46,201 nt of DNA from Candidatus Atribacteria bacterium ADurb.Bin276 (GTDB lineage Bacteria; Atribacterota; Atribacteria; Atribacterales; Atribacteraceae), in NCBI GenBank assembly GCA_002069605.1, contig MWBQ01000047.1:1-46201 (forward strand), written 5' to 3'. Positions within the stretch are counted from its first letter, which is position 1. Every line of letters starts with the position of its first letter. The notes beneath the pieces are model-generated. The model saw only the letters and a list, made by a program, of their open reading frames with translations, had not been told where the DNA came from and did not search any database. The position numbers were made by a program, and so were the translations under genes. Of this stretch, positions 4,833 to 16,684 are shown piece after piece.

Positions 4833-5027
4833 ATGCTGTCCATTGATGAATTGATCAAGAAAACTGGGAACCGTTATTATTTAACCACCCTGGTGGCTAA
4901 GCGTTCCAAACAACTTAATCAAGGTGCCAAACCTTTGATTGAAAATCAACAACCAGCCAAACCACTTTTTATTGCTTTAAAAGAGGTTGCTGAGGATAAA
5001 ATTAAGTGGTCTAAGGAAACGGCATGA
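4833..5027 (+). CDS. rpoZ: RNA polymerase omega subunit
   Basis: This 64-residue protein is the size and shape of the omega subunit, which helps fold and stabilise the beta-prime subunit of RNA polymerase. It begins MLSIDELIKKTGNRYYLTTL and has the family's VAKRSKQL stretch, then ends in a short helix with IALKEVAEDKI. The start has TTGGAG upstream. The stop overlaps the coaBC start by four bases (ATGA), so the two are probably translationally coupled. The gmk-rpoZ-coaBC-priA context supports the call, which sequence alone would leave less certain in so short a protein. Confidence 0.88.
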   Translation: MLSIDELIKKTGNRYYLTTLVAKRSKQLNQGAKPLIENQQPAKPLFIALKEVAEDKIKWSKETA

Positions 5028-6241
5028 ATATTTATTATCCACCGTTGTTTTGGAAGAATAAAAAAATTCTTTTTGGAATTACTGGTGGAATTTCTGCCTA
5101 TAAAGTAGCTGGTTTTATCAGCCATCTGGTTCAAGCAGGATCGGATATCCAAGTCATTATGACTGAGGCAGCCAAGAAATTTGTAGGAGAAAATACCTTC
5201 AACGCATTAACCCGTAGGCCGGTTTATTCCAGTCTATTTGAATCCGGCGAAAAAATTCTCCATATTCATTTAATGAGAGAATATGATTATTTGGTAGTTG
5301 CACCAGCAACTGCGAATATCATCGGCAAAATGGCCGGGGGAATTGGTGATGACCTGTTAAGCAGCTGTTTTTTGGTTGATCCGAAGAAAATCATTTTAGT
5401 TCCGGCTATGAATGTTGACATGTGGGGTAACCCAATCGTGCAAGAAAATTTAAAAAAACTCATTGCGATCGGGGTACGGGTCATGAATCCCTCTTCCGGA
5501 TCTTTAGCTTGCGGTGAAACCGGGGCGGGGCGTCTTCCCGATCAAGAGGAGTTTATAGAAAACCTTTACTACTTCCTTAGTTCTTATCGATCTCTACAAG
5601 GGAAAAGAGCATTGATTACTGCCGGACCAACTCGGGAATATATTGATCCCATCCGTTATCTAACCAATTCTTCCAGTGGCCTGATGGGCTGTTCGCTGGC
5701 GGCTGCTGCTCGAGCCCATGGAGCCGAGGTAACTTTGATTGGTGGTCCAATGTCGGTGAGAATTCCATCCGGAGTTGATTACCTTCCAATCGTTTCAACC
5801 CAGGACTTAGAAACTGCGACTCTCAAACAATTTGATAAAATGGATATTTGTATCATGACCGCTGCGGTTGCTGATTATCGACCTTCAATTACCTCTCCAA
5901 TAAAGATAAAAAAGCAGGGTAAAAGTGAAATTGCTCTAAGTTTAACTCAAAATCCTGATATTCTTTCCGAACTAGGCCAAAAGAAAGCAGCTCAATTATT
6001 AGTCGGATTCTGTGCTGAAGATGGAGATATTGTCTCGGAAGCTCGTCGAAAATTACAGCAAAAGAATTGTGATGTGATGATTGCCAATCGTATTTTACCA
6101 GGAGAAAGTGGTTTCGAAGTGAATAAAAATAAAGCTTGGCTTCTCAATAAGAATGGTGCATTGATTGATATTCCTTTAATGGATAAAATGGAATTGGCTG
6201 AAACGATTGTGAACTACCTGGTTTCTCTTTATTTTACATGA
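5024..6241 (+). CDS. coaBC: Bifunctional phosphopantothenoylcysteine decarboxylase / phosphopantothenate-cysteine ligase
   Basis: CoaBC carries out two successive steps of coenzyme A synthesis. The N-terminal flavoprotein CoaC half (to about residue 190) has the ITGGISAYK start, His80 in the LHIHL motif, VVAPATAN, the substrate-binding PAMN, and Cys163 in LACGETGAGR. The C-terminal CoaB half has ALITAGPTREYIDPIR, SSSGLMG, TAAVADYRP and NPDIL. All key residues expected for both activities are visible. The 405-residue length is normal. It overlaps rpoZ and priA by four bases each, a tight operon. coaD for a later step lies at 17453. Confidence 0.96.
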   Translation: MNIYYPPLFWKNKKILFGITGGISAYKVAGFISHLVQAGSDIQVIMTEAAKKFVGENTFNALTRRPVYSSLFESGEKILHIHLMREYDYLVVAPATANIIGKMAGGIGDDLLSSCFLVDPKKIILVPAMNVDMWGNPIVQENLKKLIAIGVRVMNPSSGSLACGETGAGRLPDQEEFIENLYYFLSSYRSLQGKRALITAGPTREYIDPIRYLTNSSSGLMGCSLAAAARAHGAEVTLIGGPMSVRIPSGVDYLPIVSTQDLETATLKQFDKMDICIMTAAVADYRPSITSPIKIKKQGKSEIALSLTQNPDILSELGQKKAAQLLVGFCAEDGDIVSEARRKLQQKNCDVMIANRILPGESGFEVNKNKAWLLNKNGALIDIPLMDKMELAETIVNYLVSLYFT

Positions 6242-8319
6242 AAATGAATTCGGTATCGGTTGCTCTTCCGCTTCCAGTCTACAAAGTGTTTAGCTATCGT
6301 ATTCCTCAAGAGATGAGCGATAAAATTCAGATTGGAACCATTGTTGAAGTTGAATTTCATGGATCACGCCGTTTTGGATGCGTTTGGTCGTTTGATTCAG
6401 TTCAAAATGATAAAGAATACGAATTAAAAAGCCTGCTTTCCTGTCTTCCGCTTGAACCCTTAGCGGATTGGCAGATGGAATTTGCCAAAAGAATTTCAAA
6501 TCAAACCTTTTCCAGTCTTGGAGAGGCACTGGCTCTCTTTGTTCCCAAGTATCAATTGTCGTGGGAGAAATGGACCAGTCAGCGAATATTTTTAATAAAT
6601 GAAGATGACGAATATTTTCTTGATTTGAAAAAGCATGGTGTTGATCCCATTTCCCAAGGAGTGAATTTATTTATTTTTAAAGATTTATTGGGACTCACTA
6701 CTCAAAAAATCAATCAATTGATAAAAAAGAATCGGATCAAGGTTGTTGAAGAAGACTATAAGAAAAATCAATATAGCCTTCCCCCGCAAAAATGGAATAA
6801 AAAATGGTGGCAAAGGGGAACTATAGCCGAGAGTTTGAATCTCTTGGGAGATCTAATCAAAGATAGCTTCGATCGAGGCTTAAAGATCTTCATTTTGTTT
6901 CCCGGTCCAAAGATTTTAGATTATTTTATGGAAAATTTAAAAACTAATTATCCCTTGGCTCGTTTTCTTTCTTTCGATGGAAGATTAACAGCCCGAAAAA
7001 GAATGCTTGCCTATCAAATGGTAAGAGAAGGCTATTTTGACGTTTTGTTGGGCACTCGTTTGGCTCAATTTTTACCAATTCATCAAATTGGTGTTCAGGT
7101 CTTGTTTGATCCCGACGACTTTGGTCATTACTCTGATCAGCAACCGCATTATCATTCTTTTCATTCGTTAATTGAGAAAGTTAGTATTACTGGTGGGGAT
7201 CTGCATATTATTGGAACCATACCCGATCTAACCCTTTATTTTGGATTGCAGGAAGGATATTTTGAAACCCAAAAAGGACAAGTAAAACAATTTACCAAAG
7301 AACAGAAGCTGGAGCTAGTAACCTATGAACAGAAAAAGACTATTCTCCCACAATTGGTACAAAAAGCCATTGCTCAAAATATAACCAACCGGCAAAATAG
7401 CATTATCTGGGTTCAAAAAACAGGATATTCGGTTGCTTTGGGTTGTTCCGATTGTGGTTTTTATTATTCCTGTTCCGATTGTGATGTAGCCTTGAGATTT
7501 TACCGGAAAGAGAGGATTCTTCGCTGCCCTCGGTGTGGGAAAAAAGTTATCCCTGAAAGCTTTTGTCCGGAATGTCATGGGCCCTGGATGAAAACTTGGG
7601 GTGATGGTATTGAGAAAGTTTATCAATTTTTAAAAAGGATCTTCTCAGGAGTACCCATAGTAAAAATCGCTTCTGATCAAGAAAGAAGCGAGCTGGATGT
7701 AAAGGGCGAGGAACCGTTGATTATTGTTGGAACCTCAGCAGCTTTACATGAAGAACTTTTAGCTCACTCGACTCTTTTTATCATTCATTCCTTTGAAGAT
7801 TGGTTATTTTTGCCTGAATTTCAAGTACGGGAAAAATTTTATCAAAATATCCAGCGAGCTCTCTATTTTTTGGGAGCAGCAAAACCACCGAAGAACAGAG
7901 TTCTTATCGAAACTTCTAAACAATATCAAAAATATATTGACCCATTTTTCCTTCCGCCTGCAGAATTTTATAAACAAGAATTGGAAAAAAGAAAAAAATA
8001 TGGATATCCTCCCAGCCAGGGGCTTCTTCAGGTGATAGCTCGTTCAAGGAATAAGTTAAATCGTGAAATGGTTTTAAATAAAGTAAAAAACGAATTAAAG
8101 GTTGATCAGTTTATAGTTGATGGTCCTTTTCCTGGAGATAGTTACCTCAAGAAATCAGGATGGAGTGATCAATTGGTGATAAAGTTTGAACCATCGGTTT
8201 TGAGCACCCTTTATAATAAAGTGACAGCTGTGGTTCAAGCCAGAAAAAGCACTGGTGTTGAAGTTGATTTTAAAGTTTATAATACTCTTCCTGGTTGGGT
8301 AAAGGATGACCCCCGATAA
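6238..8319 (+). CDS. priA: PriA-type primosomal protein N' lacking the helicase ATPase motifs
   Basis: PriA recognises stalled forks and D-loops and rebuilds the primosome. This 693-residue protein keeps the N-terminal DNA-binding domain and the complete zinc-binding region, with eight cysteines in four CxxC pairs (403/406, 412/415, 430/433, 443/446) followed by GDGIEKV. The C-terminal domain has KKYGYPPSQGLLQVIARS. The ATPase motifs are gone: the Walker A position near 194-203 reads GTIAESLNLL, the DEEH box is FDPDD (290-294), the SATPS motif is GTIPDL, and the arginine-finger motif QVAGRAGR is not found. A helicase-free PriA is known in Actinobacteria. The ATG at 6238 overlaps coaBC; 6244 is a second possible start. 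Confidence 0.88.
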   Translation: MKMNSVSVALPLPVYKVFSYRIPQEMSDKIQIGTIVEVEFHGSRRFGCVWSFDSVQNDKEYELKSLLSCLPLEPLADWQMEFAKRISNQTFSSLGEALALFVPKYQLSWEKWTSQRIFLINEDDEYFLDLKKHGVDPISQGVNLFIFKDLLGLTTQKINQLIKKNRIKVVEEDYKKNQYSLPPQKWNKKWWQRGTIAESLNLLGDLIKDSFDRGLKIFILFPGPKILDYFMENLKTNYPLARFLSFDGRLTARKRMLAYQMVREGYFDVLLGTRLAQFLPIHQIGVQVLFDPDDFGHYSDQQPHYHSFHSLIEKVSITGGDLHIIGTIPDLTLYFGLQEGYFETQKGQVKQFTKEQKLELVTYEQKKTILPQLVQKAIAQNITNRQNSIIWVQKTGYSVALGCSDCGFYYSCSDCDVALRFYRKERILRCPRCGKKVIPESFCPECHGPWMKTWGDGIEKVYQFLKRIFSGVPIVKIASDQERSELDVKGEEPLIIVGTSAALHEELLAHSTLFIIHSFEDWLFLPEFQVREKFYQNIQRALYFLGAAKPPKNRVLIETSKQYQKYIDPFFLPPAEFYKQELEKRKKYGYPPSQGLLQVIARSRNKLNREMVLNKVKNELKVDQFIVDGPFPGDSYLKKSGWSDQLVIKFEPSVLSTLYNKVTAVVQARKSTGVEVDFKVYNTLPGWVKDDPR

Positions 8320-8460: not shown

Positions 8461-8530
8461 AGTGTTTTAGAATTAGATTAATAAATTATGGTATTGTTGG
8501 TTTGAAATATAAGAAAAAAAGGTGATATCA

Positions 8531-9040
8531 ATGGCGGATCTGAATATTGAGAAATATGGAAGCCAAATTTTGAGGCAAAAAGCTGAACCAGTTCAAAATA
8601 TTGATGGCAAAGTCAAAAAAATCATACAGGATATGTTCGAAACTCTGCATAAAAACTCTGGCTTGGGATTAGCTGCCAATCAAGTGGGAATTCTGCAGCG
8701 CTTGGTTGTTTTAACGAATCCAAATACTAACCAAGACATGGCTTTCATTAATCCCGAGTGGAAAGAAGTCGATCCAGAAAAAGAAATTGGAGAAGAAGGG
8801 TGTTTGAGTGTTCCTGGAATATTTTCAAAGGTCAACCGGTTCCAGAAAATTCAAGTTACTACCCAAGATGTTCAAGGAAGGCAACTGGATTTTTTTGCTG
8901 ATGGCTTATTGGCACGGATCATCCAGCATGAAATTGATCATCTCAATGGTATTCTCTTTATTGACCGTTTGAGCCCAACTCGTCGTTTGGTATTGGCTAA
9001 TAAATTATCAAGAATAAATACAAATGGTGATCATGAATGA
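8531..9040 (+). CDS. def: Peptide deformylase
   Basis: Peptide deformylase removes the formyl group from the N-terminal methionine of new proteins. All three family motifs are present: GLGLAANQVG (44-53), EGCLSVPG (89-96, Cys91) and QHEIDHLNG (132-140, with His133, Glu134 and His137). Cys91 and the two histidines bind the catalytic metal. The ATG at 8531 is chosen because AAGGTG sits seven bases upstream; a GTG at 8522 overlaps that ribosome-binding site. The 169-residue length is normal. It overlaps fmt by four bases, so the enzymes that add and remove the formyl group are coupled. Confidence 0.95.
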   Translation: MADLNIEKYGSQILRQKAEPVQNIDGKVKKIIQDMFETLHKNSGLGLAANQVGILQRLVVLTNPNTNQDMAFINPEWKEVDPEKEIGEEGCLSVPGIFSKVNRFQKIQVTTQDVQGRQLDFFADGLLARIIQHEIDHLNGILFIDRLSPTRRLVLANKLSRINTNGDHE

Positions 9041-9972
9041 TAAAAGTAGTTTTTTTAGGAACAACTCCCTTATCGATTGGAGTGTTGAGCGCTCTTGTCG
9101 ATGCCCAGTATAATATTGCAGCTGTTATTACCCAACCCGACCGTGAGTGTGGAAGAGGAAGAAAATTAACCGCTCCACCGGTTAAAGTTTGGTCCCAAGA
9201 TCATGGGTTCAAAGTTTTACAACCAGATAAAGTGAATCGGAAAGATTTTTTAGATGAAATTAATAAAATTGCTCCCGACATTATGATCGTGGCTGCCTAC
9301 GGACAAATCTTACGTTCATCGCTATTAGAAATTGCTCCTTTCGGGTGTATAAACGTGCATGCTTCGCTGCTTCCTCGTTATCGTGGTGCTGATCCAATCC
9401 GCTGGGTAATTTTGAACGGTGAAAAAAAGACCGGTGTCAGCATCATGTTGATGGACGAAGGAATCGATACCGGGCCAGTTTTAGCAACCCGTGAAGTGAT
9501 GATTGAAGATTCAGAAAATAGTATTACTTTAGAAAATAAATTAGGTAAAATCGGTGGAGAATTGTTAGTGGAGGTTTTGCCTGCCTGGATTGAAGGAAAG
9601 ATCAAACCGATTCCGCAATCGAATGAGCAAGCGAGCTATGCAGGAAAAATTCCGAAAGATCTTTATCAAATCAAATGGAATCGTTCAGCTGAAGAAATCG
9701 TTCGCCAAGTCAAAGCCTTTGCTCCCTGTCCAGGAGCTTTTGGATATTTTCATCAAAAACGCCTAAAAGTCATTAAAGCTCACGTCTATAAACAAAAGGA
9801 AAAAGTGAAAGCCGGACAAATCATTGGCTATGAACCTAAGGTTGGATTATTGGTGGGAACTGGTAAGGGAATATTGGCGATAGAAGTATTACATCCAGAA
9901 AATAGAAAAGTTCAAACCGGACAGGAGTTTTGCTGTGGATACCGTATTCAACCTGGAGATCTATTTCAGTAG
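9037..9972 (+). CDS. fmt: Methionyl-tRNA formyltransferase
   Basis: Fmt transfers a formyl group from 10-formyl-tetrahydrofolate to methionyl-initiator tRNA. The 311 residues show the N-terminal Rossmann-like domain (VFLGTTPLSIGVL) and the catalytic Asn-His-Asp set at Asn106, His108 and Asp144 in INVHASLLPRYRG and MDEGIDTGPV. The C-terminal OB-like tRNA-binding domain starts near residue 205. It follows def in the conserved priA-def-fmt order and overlaps it by four bases. The next gene, a membrane metallopeptidase, begins 14 bases after the stop. Confidence 0.95.
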   Translation: MIKVVFLGTTPLSIGVLSALVDAQYNIAAVITQPDRECGRGRKLTAPPVKVWSQDHGFKVLQPDKVNRKDFLDEINKIAPDIMIVAAYGQILRSSLLEIAPFGCINVHASLLPRYRGADPIRWVILNGEKKTGVSIMLMDEGIDTGPVLATREVMIEDSENSITLENKLGKIGGELLVEVLPAWIEGKIKPIPQSNEQASYAGKIPKDLYQIKWNRSAEEIVRQVKAFAPCPGAFGYFHQKRLKVIKAHVYKQKEKVKAGQIIGYEPKVGLLVGTGKGILAIEVLHPENRKVQTGQEFCCGYRIQPGDLFQ

Positions 9973-9986
9973 GAGGTGTACGGAAG

Positions 9987-10667
9987 ATGTTTTATCCTTT
10001 TGATTACACATTTATTTTATTGATACCAGCACTCATCCTGGCTTTTTATGCCCAATCAAAAGTGAAAAGCACTTATGCAACTCTTTCACAAAAACGTTCT
10101 CGGGCTGGTTTGAGTGGATTTGAAGTTGCCCAACAGCTAATTCAACAAAATAATCTTTCCCTCCGGGTTGAAGAAACCCCAGGGCAGCTAACCGATCACT
10201 ATGATCCATCTCGGGAAATACTCCGGCTTTCTACCGGTGTGGCTAGGGGTGGTTCAATAGCAGATTATAGCATTGCTGCGCACGAGGTTGGGCATGCATT
10301 ACAAAAGCGCGAGAAATACGGGGCTTTTGCCTTGCGTTCCATTTTGGTTCCAGTGGCCAGTATCGGTTCGCAAGCCGCCTTTCCGCTCTTTTTTATAGGG
10401 TTAATCTTTTCTTTTCGATTTCTTATGGATATTGGAATTATCTTCTTTAGCTTGGCGGTTTTATTCCAAGTGGTTACTCTCCCAGTAGAATACGATGCCA
10501 GCCGTCGAGCTTATGCAGCCCTAACCAATTCTGGTATAGTTGCCGTGGATGAGCAGCCGGATATTAAAAAAATGCTCAATGCTGCAGCGTTAACCTATGT
10601 TGCTGCAACCGCCATGGCTGCCTTACAATTATTGCGTTTAATTCTTCTTCGTCAAAGCCGGGATTAA
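9987..10667 (+). CDS. YugP-like membrane zinc metallopeptidase
   Basis: This 226-residue protein matches the Zn_peptidase_2 family (B. subtilis YugP), whose substrates are not well known. The zinc motif HEVGH is at residues 99-103. An N-terminal membrane segment (about 8-21), two more hydrophobic segments in the middle (about 125-165) and a hydrophobic C-terminal stretch indicate an integral membrane protein. VEYDASRRA near 172 probably supplies the third zinc ligand region. The start follows a perfect AGGAGGTG. In many Firmicutes a gene of this family sits between fmt and rsmB, as here. Confidence 0.88.
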   Translation: MFYPFDYTFILLIPALILAFYAQSKVKSTYATLSQKRSRAGLSGFEVAQQLIQQNNLSLRVEETPGQLTDHYDPSREILRLSTGVARGGSIADYSIAAHEVGHALQKREKYGAFALRSILVPVASIGSQAAFPLFFIGLIFSFRFLMDIGIIFFSLAVLFQVVTLPVEYDASRRAYAALTNSGIVAVDEQPDIKKMLNAAALTYVAATAMAALQLLRLILLRQSRD

Positions 10668-14255: not shown

Positions 14256-14335
14256 CTCATTCTTACCAAGGGATAAAAATCTTTCCGTTGTCTTGGTTCT
14301 CATATCAGGTTACAATACCCTCGGGTGTTTTTAAA

Positions 14336-16684
14336 ATGGAGAAGGATAGAGATCGACTAAAAAAAATCATTGAACAAGAATCTCAACGACTGGATAATCA
14401 AACCGTGTTCGGGGGATTTAATCAATATGTAAAAAAAATGATCCAAAGCCTATCAATTCCAGTTCCTGAGGAAATATTCTTAAGTGTAAATAGGTATCCC
14501 CAAATGTCAAAACCAGCCAGGAGCATTTTTCTGAAAAACTTGGAAACCTGCATTATAGATGGACACCAACCGCAACCTTCTGCCTCTCAACCTTCATCGC
14601 CTATAAAACCGGTCGATTTCCAGCTTTCGGTTCGAACCATAAAAGGAGTTGGACCAGTTGTTGAAAAACAGCTCAACCGTTTAAATATTTATACCCGAGA
14701 AGACCTCATTCTTTATTTTCCTCGTCATTACCAAGATCGAGGGCAGATTATCCCCATTGCTAAAGCGGAAGGTTCAGGATTACAAACAGTATTGGGGAAA
14801 GTGGTTCGACACGATCGGATATCTACCCGGAGAGGACGATTGTTGAAAGTAGTGATTCAAGACCAAACCGGGCAAATTTCTTTAGTTTGTTTTAATCGTG
14901 ATTTTTTGGCTCGAATTCTCACGCCGGGGAAAAAAGTGCTCATCACCGGTTTTTTTCAAACAGCTTATGGAAAGAAAGAAACCAGTCGCTTTGAGTATGA
15001 AATAATCGATTCCGAAGATATTCAATATGAATCCATCCTGCCGGTTTATGGTTTAACCGATGGACTCAACGCCAAAAAATTACGTTCTCTTATCGATATA
15101 GCACTTAAAACATCCTTAGCCGCTTTTCAAGATACTATTCCTAAACCTATTCAAGAAAAATATAGTCTCCTAAGGAAGCCTGGGGCAATTTTAGAACTTC
15201 ACCATCCGAGCCGATCCTCAATTACTGAACTGAATAAGCATCGTTCTCGGTCGCAGGTTACGCTTATTTTTGAAGAATTTCTTCTTTTTGCTTTAAGTCT
15301 AAAAGTTAGAAGGCATCAAATTCAGGCATTACAGGTTCAACCCATTGTTCCCGACTTCACATTCATCAACCGTTTTATTCGACAACTTCCTTTTGAATTG
15401 ACGTTAGCTCAGAAAAAAGTATTAAAACAAATAGAAAATGACCTGACCAGTGGGAAAATAATGAATCGGTTGCTCCAGGGAGATGTTGGTTCGGGAAAAA
15501 CCTTGGTCGCCATCATTAATGCTCTATATATTATAAAAGCCGGACAGCAGGTTGCTATGATGGCCCCAACCGAAATCCTCGCCGATCAGCATTATCAGCG
15601 GTGGAGTCAAATATTAAAAGAGTTTGGTATTGAAGTTAGTTTAATAACCGGTGGTCAAAGTAAGGAAAAAAGTGAAATAATAGAGAAAATCGGAGAAGGC
15701 AGGGTACATTTCGTTATTGGGACTCATGCCCTGCTGGAAGATTATGTTCAGTTTAATCGATTGGGATTAGTCATTGTCGATGAGCAGCATCGTTTTGGGG
15801 TAAAACAACGTTCCCGATTAAAAGAAAAAGCCGTTGTTCCTCACCTTTTGGTGATGTCGGCAACTCCCATACCCCGAACCTTAGCCTTAACTCTTTACGG
15901 GGACCTGGATGTTTCGGTTCTTGATGGAAAACCAATCGGGAGAAAACCGGTTGAAACAGTTGCTTTTTCTATGAAAGAACAAAAACAAGCCTTTCAACGA
16001 GTAGGTTCCTTTTTGGAGAAGGGACAACAAGCTTTTGTAGTTTGTCCGGCAATTGAGGAAAGTGATCTTGAATTAAGCAACGTATATGAAGTTTATGAAC
16101 AGCTCCAAAAGAAATGGTTTTCCCACTCTCAGATTGAGTTGATACATGGAAAACTTCCTTCAAAAGAGAAGGATGATATTATGGGTCGATTTTCTCGGGG
16201 AGAAATTCAAGTCTTGGTAGCAACCTCGGTGATTGAAGTGGGGATCGATGTGCCCAATGCCAATGTGATGGTCATTGAAAATGCCGAGCGCTTTGGTTTG
16301 GCACAGCTTCATCAATTGCGGGGGAGAATTGGTCGAGGAGATCAAGCTGGTTGGTGTGTTTTGCTATACCAGGGGAAGAATCAAGATATCCAAAAAAGAA
16401 TGGAAATCATGGTCAATACCGATGATGGATTTCAAATTGCCGAAGAGGACCTCAAAATGAGAGGACCGGGAGAATTTTATGGGGTAAGGCAGTCGGGAGT
16501 TTTGGAATTTCATTTAGCCGATCCTTTTCGGGATTGGAAAATTTTGGAAAAAGCCCATCAAGAAGCTGATTTGATTCTCCAGAATGATCCCCGACTGCAG
16601 AAACCGGAAAATCAAATCCTCAAGAAGGAAATTGAAAGACGGTTTTTCCAATTTTTACCGGAAGAACTAATGATCGAAGCCTAA
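14336..16684 (+). CDS. recG: ATP-dependent DNA helicase RecG
   Basis: RecG reverses stalled forks and branch-migrates Holliday junctions. This 782-residue copy has an extra N-terminal helical segment of about 90 residues before the wedge domain, which starts at RTIKGVGPVVEKQLNRL with its OB fold. The helicase part shows GDVGSGKT, DEQHRFG, SATPIPRTLALTLYGDLDVS, VATSVIEVGIDVPNANVMV and QLRGRIGRG, so the ATPase is intact. The ATG at 14336 is used; a TTG at 14288 would add 16 residues of no clear family likeness. It is notable beside the ATPase-less PriA, since both act at stalled forks. Confidence 0.96.
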   Translation: MEKDRDRLKKIIEQESQRLDNQTVFGGFNQYVKKMIQSLSIPVPEEIFLSVNRYPQMSKPARSIFLKNLETCIIDGHQPQPSASQPSSPIKPVDFQLSVRTIKGVGPVVEKQLNRLNIYTREDLILYFPRHYQDRGQIIPIAKAEGSGLQTVLGKVVRHDRISTRRGRLLKVVIQDQTGQISLVCFNRDFLARILTPGKKVLITGFFQTAYGKKETSRFEYEIIDSEDIQYESILPVYGLTDGLNAKKLRSLIDIALKTSLAAFQDTIPKPIQEKYSLLRKPGAILELHHPSRSSITELNKHRSRSQVTLIFEEFLLFALSLKVRRHQIQALQVQPIVPDFTFINRFIRQLPFELTLAQKKVLKQIENDLTSGKIMNRLLQGDVGSGKTLVAIINALYIIKAGQQVAMMAPTEILADQHYQRWSQILKEFGIEVSLITGGQSKEKSEIIEKIGEGRVHFVIGTHALLEDYVQFNRLGLVIVDEQHRFGVKQRSRLKEKAVVPHLLVMSATPIPRTLALTLYGDLDVSVLDGKPIGRKPVETVAFSMKEQKQAFQRVGSFLEKGQQAFVVCPAIEESDLELSNVYEVYEQLQKKWFSHSQIELIHGKLPSKEKDDIMGRFSRGEIQVLVATSVIEVGIDVPNANVMVIENAERFGLAQLHQLRGRIGRGDQAGWCVLLYQGKNQDIQKRMEIMVNTDDGFQIAEEDLKMRGPGEFYGVRQSGVLEFHLADPFRDWKILEKAHQEADLILQNDPRLQKPENQILKKEIERRFFQFLPEELMIEA

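Follow-up and report, generated by a model that had tools for sequence, protein, structure and literature searches.

The DNA analyzed here, referred to as the window, is a 46,201-nucleotide stretch of Candidatus Atribacteria bacterium ADurb.Bin276 (contig MWBQ01000047.1 of assembly GCA_002069605.1). The gene under study is priA, located at 6238..8319 on the + strand and encoding 693 amino acids. Its ORF begins with ATG, contains no internal stops and overlaps by four bases the stop of the upstream gene coaBC (5024..6241, + strand). ORFs and neighbourhood comparison place def and fmt downstream in conserved order (8522..9972, + strand), and the whole belongs to a conserved cluster, gmk-coaBC-priA-def-fmt-rsmB. 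The same cluster carries recG (14288..16684, + strand), recognized by neighbourhood comparison and phylum search, with intact GDVGSGKT, DEQHRFG, SATPIPRT and QLRGRIGRG motifs. An initial annotation of this DNA had described priA as intact in a conserved operon, with no stop or frameshift, and recG as intact; both descriptions were borne out by the unbroken ORF, the conserved cluster and the RecG motifs. It had also taken a Firmicute-like gene order as a sign that helicase function was lost separately here, which is a weak argument because the identical order is common to the phylum. Between fmt and rsmB, positions 9930-10667 encode a predicted zinc metallopeptidase-like membrane protein whose position is kept in four Atribacterota relatives (L182, L183, L184 and L185).

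The window protein was identified as PriA by NCBIfam models at 146-175 bits, which is below their curated cut-offs, and its PDB sequence matches are PriA without exception. Among named records, the closest come from MAGs of Candidatus Atribacteria, whose proteins are 76-89% identical. The Pfam model for the 3′-end DNA-binding domain (PF17764) matched at 63.9 bits, well over its cut-off of 22.7, and the Pfam model for the PriA zinc region (CRR) fell slightly below its cut-off despite the presence of all eight cysteines. Scores with the actinobacterial PRK14873 models were at most 94 bits and were lower than those with the general PRK05580 PriA models, compared with 770 for an actinobacterial-type control; a best match to PRK14873, by which actinobacterial PriA is defined, is therefore not seen. 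By the features that define PriA, the protein is an orthologue: it has the N-terminal 3′-end domain, the eight-cysteine zinc region, the whole fold and the orthologous gene cluster. No second complete priA was found in the organism's own genome (98% complete), where the gene is single copy and the other three TIGR00595 matches are the window's recG and frames of Mfd and UvrB size.

For motif alignments, the window PriA was aligned with PriAs from its genus, family, order and phylum and from 10 outgroup bacteria, and subsequently with 50 outgroup PriAs, for 122 sequences altogether. Each feature is given below with its position on the + strand. At the former motif I, or Walker A, site (WWQRGTIAESLNLL, residues 190-203, 6805..6846), GxTGSGKT is replaced by RGTIAESL and the P-loop is lost. 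Motif II (DEEH) reads FDPD(D), and the former Walker B site is occupied by DPDDFGH (residues 291-297, 7108..7128). Note that the register of motif II is uncertain by one residue, such that one acidic residue might be left within the DP motif; the position of the catalytic Glu is Asp or Pro in whichever register. Motif III (SATPS) has become GTIPD (residues 326-330, 7213..7227), motif V (GTQMxAKG) has become GTSAALHE, in which only the GT of GTSAAL is kept (residues 498-503, 7729..7746), and motif VI (QVAGRAGR), which carries the arginine finger, has become RALYFLGA (residues 540-547, 7855..7878). The set of motifs I, II, III, V and VI that characterizes a catalytic PriA helicase is thus not retained. 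An alignment-free regular expression found no P-loop anywhere in the window PriA, so the P-loop is absent and not merely displaced, as the initial annotation had allowed it might be.

Other parts of the protein are kept. Alignment confirmed that all eight zinc-binding cysteines remain (403, 406, 412, 415, 430, 433, 443 and 446) in the cysteine-rich region (residues 403-446, 7444..7575). Residues kept throughout the window's class, in addition to these cysteines, are Y20, G33, V36, G47 and P103 of the 3′-end DNA-binding domain (residues 1-105, 6238..6552), G272, F278 and P280 of a lobe-1 element (GTRLAQFLP, residues 272-280, 7051..7077), P329, G498 and T499, and R585, P591 and P592 of the C-terminal domain (residues 571-693, 7948..8316). 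The zinc, 3′-domain and C-terminal hallmarks are 100% conserved, all eight cysteines being present in every aligned sequence. None of the sequences, or almost none, retains the Lys-Thr of Walker A, the acidic pair of DEEH or the Arg of the arginine finger. The earlier statement that every helicase motif checked is lost holds for motifs I, II, III and VI, with the correction that some elements of the helicase lobes persist: GTRxxxFxP (272-280), P329 of motif III and G498-T499 of motif V are kept.

A structure was predicted with AlphaFold2 from an alignment of related sequences (pLDDT 87.5, pTM 0.88). In a Foldseek comparison of the model with the PDB, the top nine matches were PriA chains, with E values to 1e-41 and TM scores of 0.64-0.75, followed by other helicases. 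Judging by the model, the window protein keeps the PriA fold throughout, including two helicase lobes and the C-terminal domain. Even the strand-loop-helix of the former P-loop persists (strand 188-192, helix 199-212).

The same loss extends beyond the window. A regular expression search over 45 Atribacterota PriAs from both classes returned neither a P-loop nor motif VI in any sequence (0/45), where 41 span the P-loop site and the remaining four are fragments that include it incompletely. Outgroup PriAs have the P-loop in all 50 cases and the DEEH-like and motif VI patterns in nearly all. In the window's class (families f1-f4, which probably correspond to the OP9/Atribacteria of PMC11227167) the helicase motifs are fully eroded, and identity to outgroup PriAs is ∼20%. 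Families f5 and f7, which we take to be JS1/Phoenicimicrobiia, retain more residues (SSETPS, GTQM, EREH), yet the P-loop and motif VI are absent from these as well. What is new here is that helicase-dead PriA, as read from these sequences, covers the whole sampled phylum. Across 50 phylum genomes, strong matches to PriA models correspond to this gene at about one per genome, no separate second strong priA match was found, and the weaker matches are RecG-, Mfd- and UvrB-sized frames; in a few genomes priA is absent or partial. Two candidates for a second gene were set aside: the two partial copies in G040 are both dead and nearly identical, and are probably an assembly or strain duplicate, and the second matches near priA in G163 and G160 are UvrB-like on reading. 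The priA frames are open at full length across the phylum. In three cases the PriA match spans one in-frame stop, probably close to the C-terminal end (L014 in G009, TGA; L018 in G006, TGA; L021 in G024, TAG), for which an error in the sequence, variation at the end or recoding might be responsible.

Pairwise dN/dS values within the genus are 0.13-0.21 for the whole gene and 0.02-0.19 for the dead lobes, and are lowest for the zinc region (0.01-0.09). These values, about as low in the dead lobes as over the gene, agree with the earlier view that priA is selected rather than decaying. At the old Walker B site, all 23 sequences of the window's class share the new pattern DPxxxG[HY], which the other 22 phylum sequences and the 50 outgroup sequences lack (0/72 in total). 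Drift alone is unlikely to give such a class-wide pattern, and the site therefore probably has a use, either structural or as a contact. Being an orthologue that has lost its ATP-site residues and is under selection, the protein has what defines a PriA pseudohelicase at the level of sequence.

Dead PriAs outside the phylum were surveyed in 194 genomes. The PriAs read were the lowest scorers and ∼50 others, and hence no frequency is claimed. Helicase-dead PriAs were found in lineages beyond Atribacterota (L103, L104/L107, L099, L100, L092, L097, L106, L108, L110, L112 and L105). Two of the genomes were used as blind controls. By its PheS, which matches 1PYS-type chains almost throughout, G068 is Thermus-like, and G148 fits actinobacterial PriA models and has no helicase motifs. 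Both the Deinococcus-Thermus and the actinobacterial groups were already noted for helicase-dead PriA (PMC4504706, PMC1193525). Open frames of ∼2465-2540 amino acids containing rpoB occur in three unrelated genomes with eroded PriA (L236 in G085, L238 in G110 and L242 in G163), and their length suggests rpoB-rpoC fusions.

In a quick tree of RpoB, Atribacterota fall on one side of a branch with SH-aLRT support of 99, and the best tree needs 12 changes of the dead state, with well supported branches forcing five or more of these. Included as dead in this count is G085, whose PriA is eroded only in part and still has a P-loop (GPPRSGKT), and G116 and G160 are very long branches. The RpoB tree implies several independent losses of the PriA helicase across bacteria, which is the second new result. 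That the loss in Atribacterota is separate from the actinobacterial one, as proposed earlier, is upheld by the distant place of the two groups in this tree and by the PRK14873 models scoring below the general PriA models. PriA trees calculated without the motif columns give a different picture, in which dead PriAs lie on one side of a branch from intact ones (support 95, and 92/95 in a second tree), as would be expected if one ancient loss or a shared transferred gene accounted for the dead state in Atribacterota and in several lineages elsewhere. We read that grouping as shared loss of constraint combined with long branches, since the dead sequences are long branches with relaxed sites that attract one another in an unrooted tree; because the RpoB tree also interleaves dead and intact genomes, a single origin is considered unlikely.

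On these grounds we think it likely, with good confidence, that the window PriA is a pseudohelicase form of the replication-restart initiator, predicted neither to bind nor to hydrolyze ATP, which selection maintains as a platform for recognizing forks and docking proteins in the loading of DnaB, most likely with DciA. The 3′-binding domain would grip the nascent 3′ end, and the winged-helix region, the dead lobes and the zinc region would hold the fork. The platform would then recruit DnaB, most likely with DciA; of the known loader types, DciA alone was found in this genome. Because such a PriA could not itself unwind the lagging strand, its action would be restricted to forks or D-loops with the lagging-strand template already exposed. 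We infer the lack of ATPase activity, the DNA binding and the recruitment of DnaB and DciA from sequence; ATP might conceivably still be bound through a non-canonical site, a consideration that was counted against the pseudohelicase reading.

DnaB is present in the organism's own genome. A family-by-family search of this genome gave no match to the DnaC/DnaI or DnaD/DnaB_2 families, and the main match to the IstB/DnaC model is a 506-amino-acid frame that fits DnaA. The DciA match, a weak one 3 kb from that frame, scores 25.4 bits with a cut-off of 24. Every listed Atribacterota genome of 90% completeness or more has DciA, as do most other bacteria (161/194). It is a compatible rather than a specific partner due to this distribution, and as a marker of dead PriA it was rejected as too widespread. 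The extreme divergence of the window's class and its class-specific invariant residues would also suit a protein that had left restart for another job, for example as a scaffold bound to D-loops or SSB and without a part in loading DnaB, with DnaA- or DciA-driven loading restarting forks. However, all PriA domains and DNA-binding hallmarks are retained, and binding to forks and to DnaB has been demonstrated for a pseudohelicase PriA (PMC4504706), which leaves a change of job with only a small chance of being correct.

It had further been suggested that RecG supplies fork remodelling lost by PriA. An intact recG in the priA cluster agrees with this, as does a RecG match over the cut-off in 21 of the 25 genomes of the window's class; the single f6 genome has one also, and fragments occur in two more. 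However, none of the 24 f5/f7 genomes (G025, G027-G049), 10 of them with completeness of 90% or more and contamination of 5% or less, has a RecG over the curated cut-off. There the RecG model matches only Mfd-sized frames, and only over the helicase part. Since PriA is dead in this sister class too, RecG is not what makes loss of the PriA helicase tolerable phylum-wide; such a role is refuted at that scale and could still hold within the window's class. In E. coli, moreover, dead PriA lessens the effects of RecG loss, with priA300 (helicase-dead) suppressing the recG recombination defect and the DNA loss of cells that lack RecG and RuvAB (PMC4752480). Overall, a RecG stand-in is improbable. 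The second Atribacterota class may be a natural example of the priA300-recG relation, on the strength of one contrast in one phylum. A broader proposal, which we regard as possible and hold tentatively, is that helicase loss is a recurrent switch freeing lineages from RecG and that the dead ATP site of the window's class has been rebuilt into the DPxxxG[HY] motif for binding or structure. A PriA unable to unwind D-loops the wrong way would make RecG dispensable, and RecG could then be lost, as in the second class.

The low scores against PriA models and the loss of most catalytic residues might suggest a decaying helicase remnant heading for loss, a reading already contradicted, and scarcely credible, given the full-length frames across the phylum, the low dN/dS even within the dead lobes, the novel class-wide motif and the maintained gene order.

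As a pseudohelicase, the window PriA belongs to a known kind, of which the Atribacterota variant is more extreme and phylum-wide. The best experimental precedent is Deinococcus rather than Actinobacteria (PMC4504706). D. radiodurans PriA has no ATPase or unwinding activity and binds forks and DnaB (PMC4504706). Like the window PriA, it is an orthologue whose Walker A and B motifs are degenerate and a lone restart initiator without PriB or DnaT, from a genome with DciA. Deinococcus-Thermus PriAs match motifs I and II poorly, with the Lys of GKT changed to Arg (PMC4504706), whereas the window PriA is without motifs I, II, III and VI. D. radiodurans PriA has been tested biochemically and the window PriA is known from sequence, and the window's class has its new Walker B-site motif. 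Actinobacterial PriA, described as smaller and very divergent (PMC1193525), also has no helicase motifs (control G148) and shares the gmk-coaBC-priA neighbourhood, but differs in its best-match model and is distant on the RpoB tree. E. coli PriA K230R (priA300) can still assemble primosomes despite its dead ATPase, and it suppresses recG defects (PMC4504706, PMC4752480); it is a single engineered change in an intact motor, whereas the loss in the window PriA is natural, ancient and nearly complete. Canonical PriA from E. coli and Klebsiella (6DGD, 4NL4, 8FAK) has the same domain order, fold, eight zinc cysteines and 3′-binding domain; unlike it, the window PriA, at 16-18% identity, has no ATP site or arginine-finger motif. 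Taken together, the motif loss, the kept fold, the selection and the D. radiodurans and E. coli precedents indicate that the primosome role is, as first proposed, probably structural.

The helicase activity of PriA has been described as well conserved and hence as important to selection, Deinococcus-Thermus being the exception (PMC4504706). As read from the sequences, every sampled member of another phylum has lost it, as have several additional lineages, with the rest of PriA kept. Because the motor has been lost repeatedly in bacteria, it seems dispensable and the docking role does not; what cannot be spared in PriA would be its recognition of forks and recruitment of the loader rather than its unwinding. 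Cultured Atribacterota isolates exist (PMC7736352, PMC11227167). The second class, with its dead PriA and without RecG, looks like a natural counterpart of an E. coli priA300 recG strain, and the role of RecG with respect to PriA therefore becomes testable by comparative genomics.
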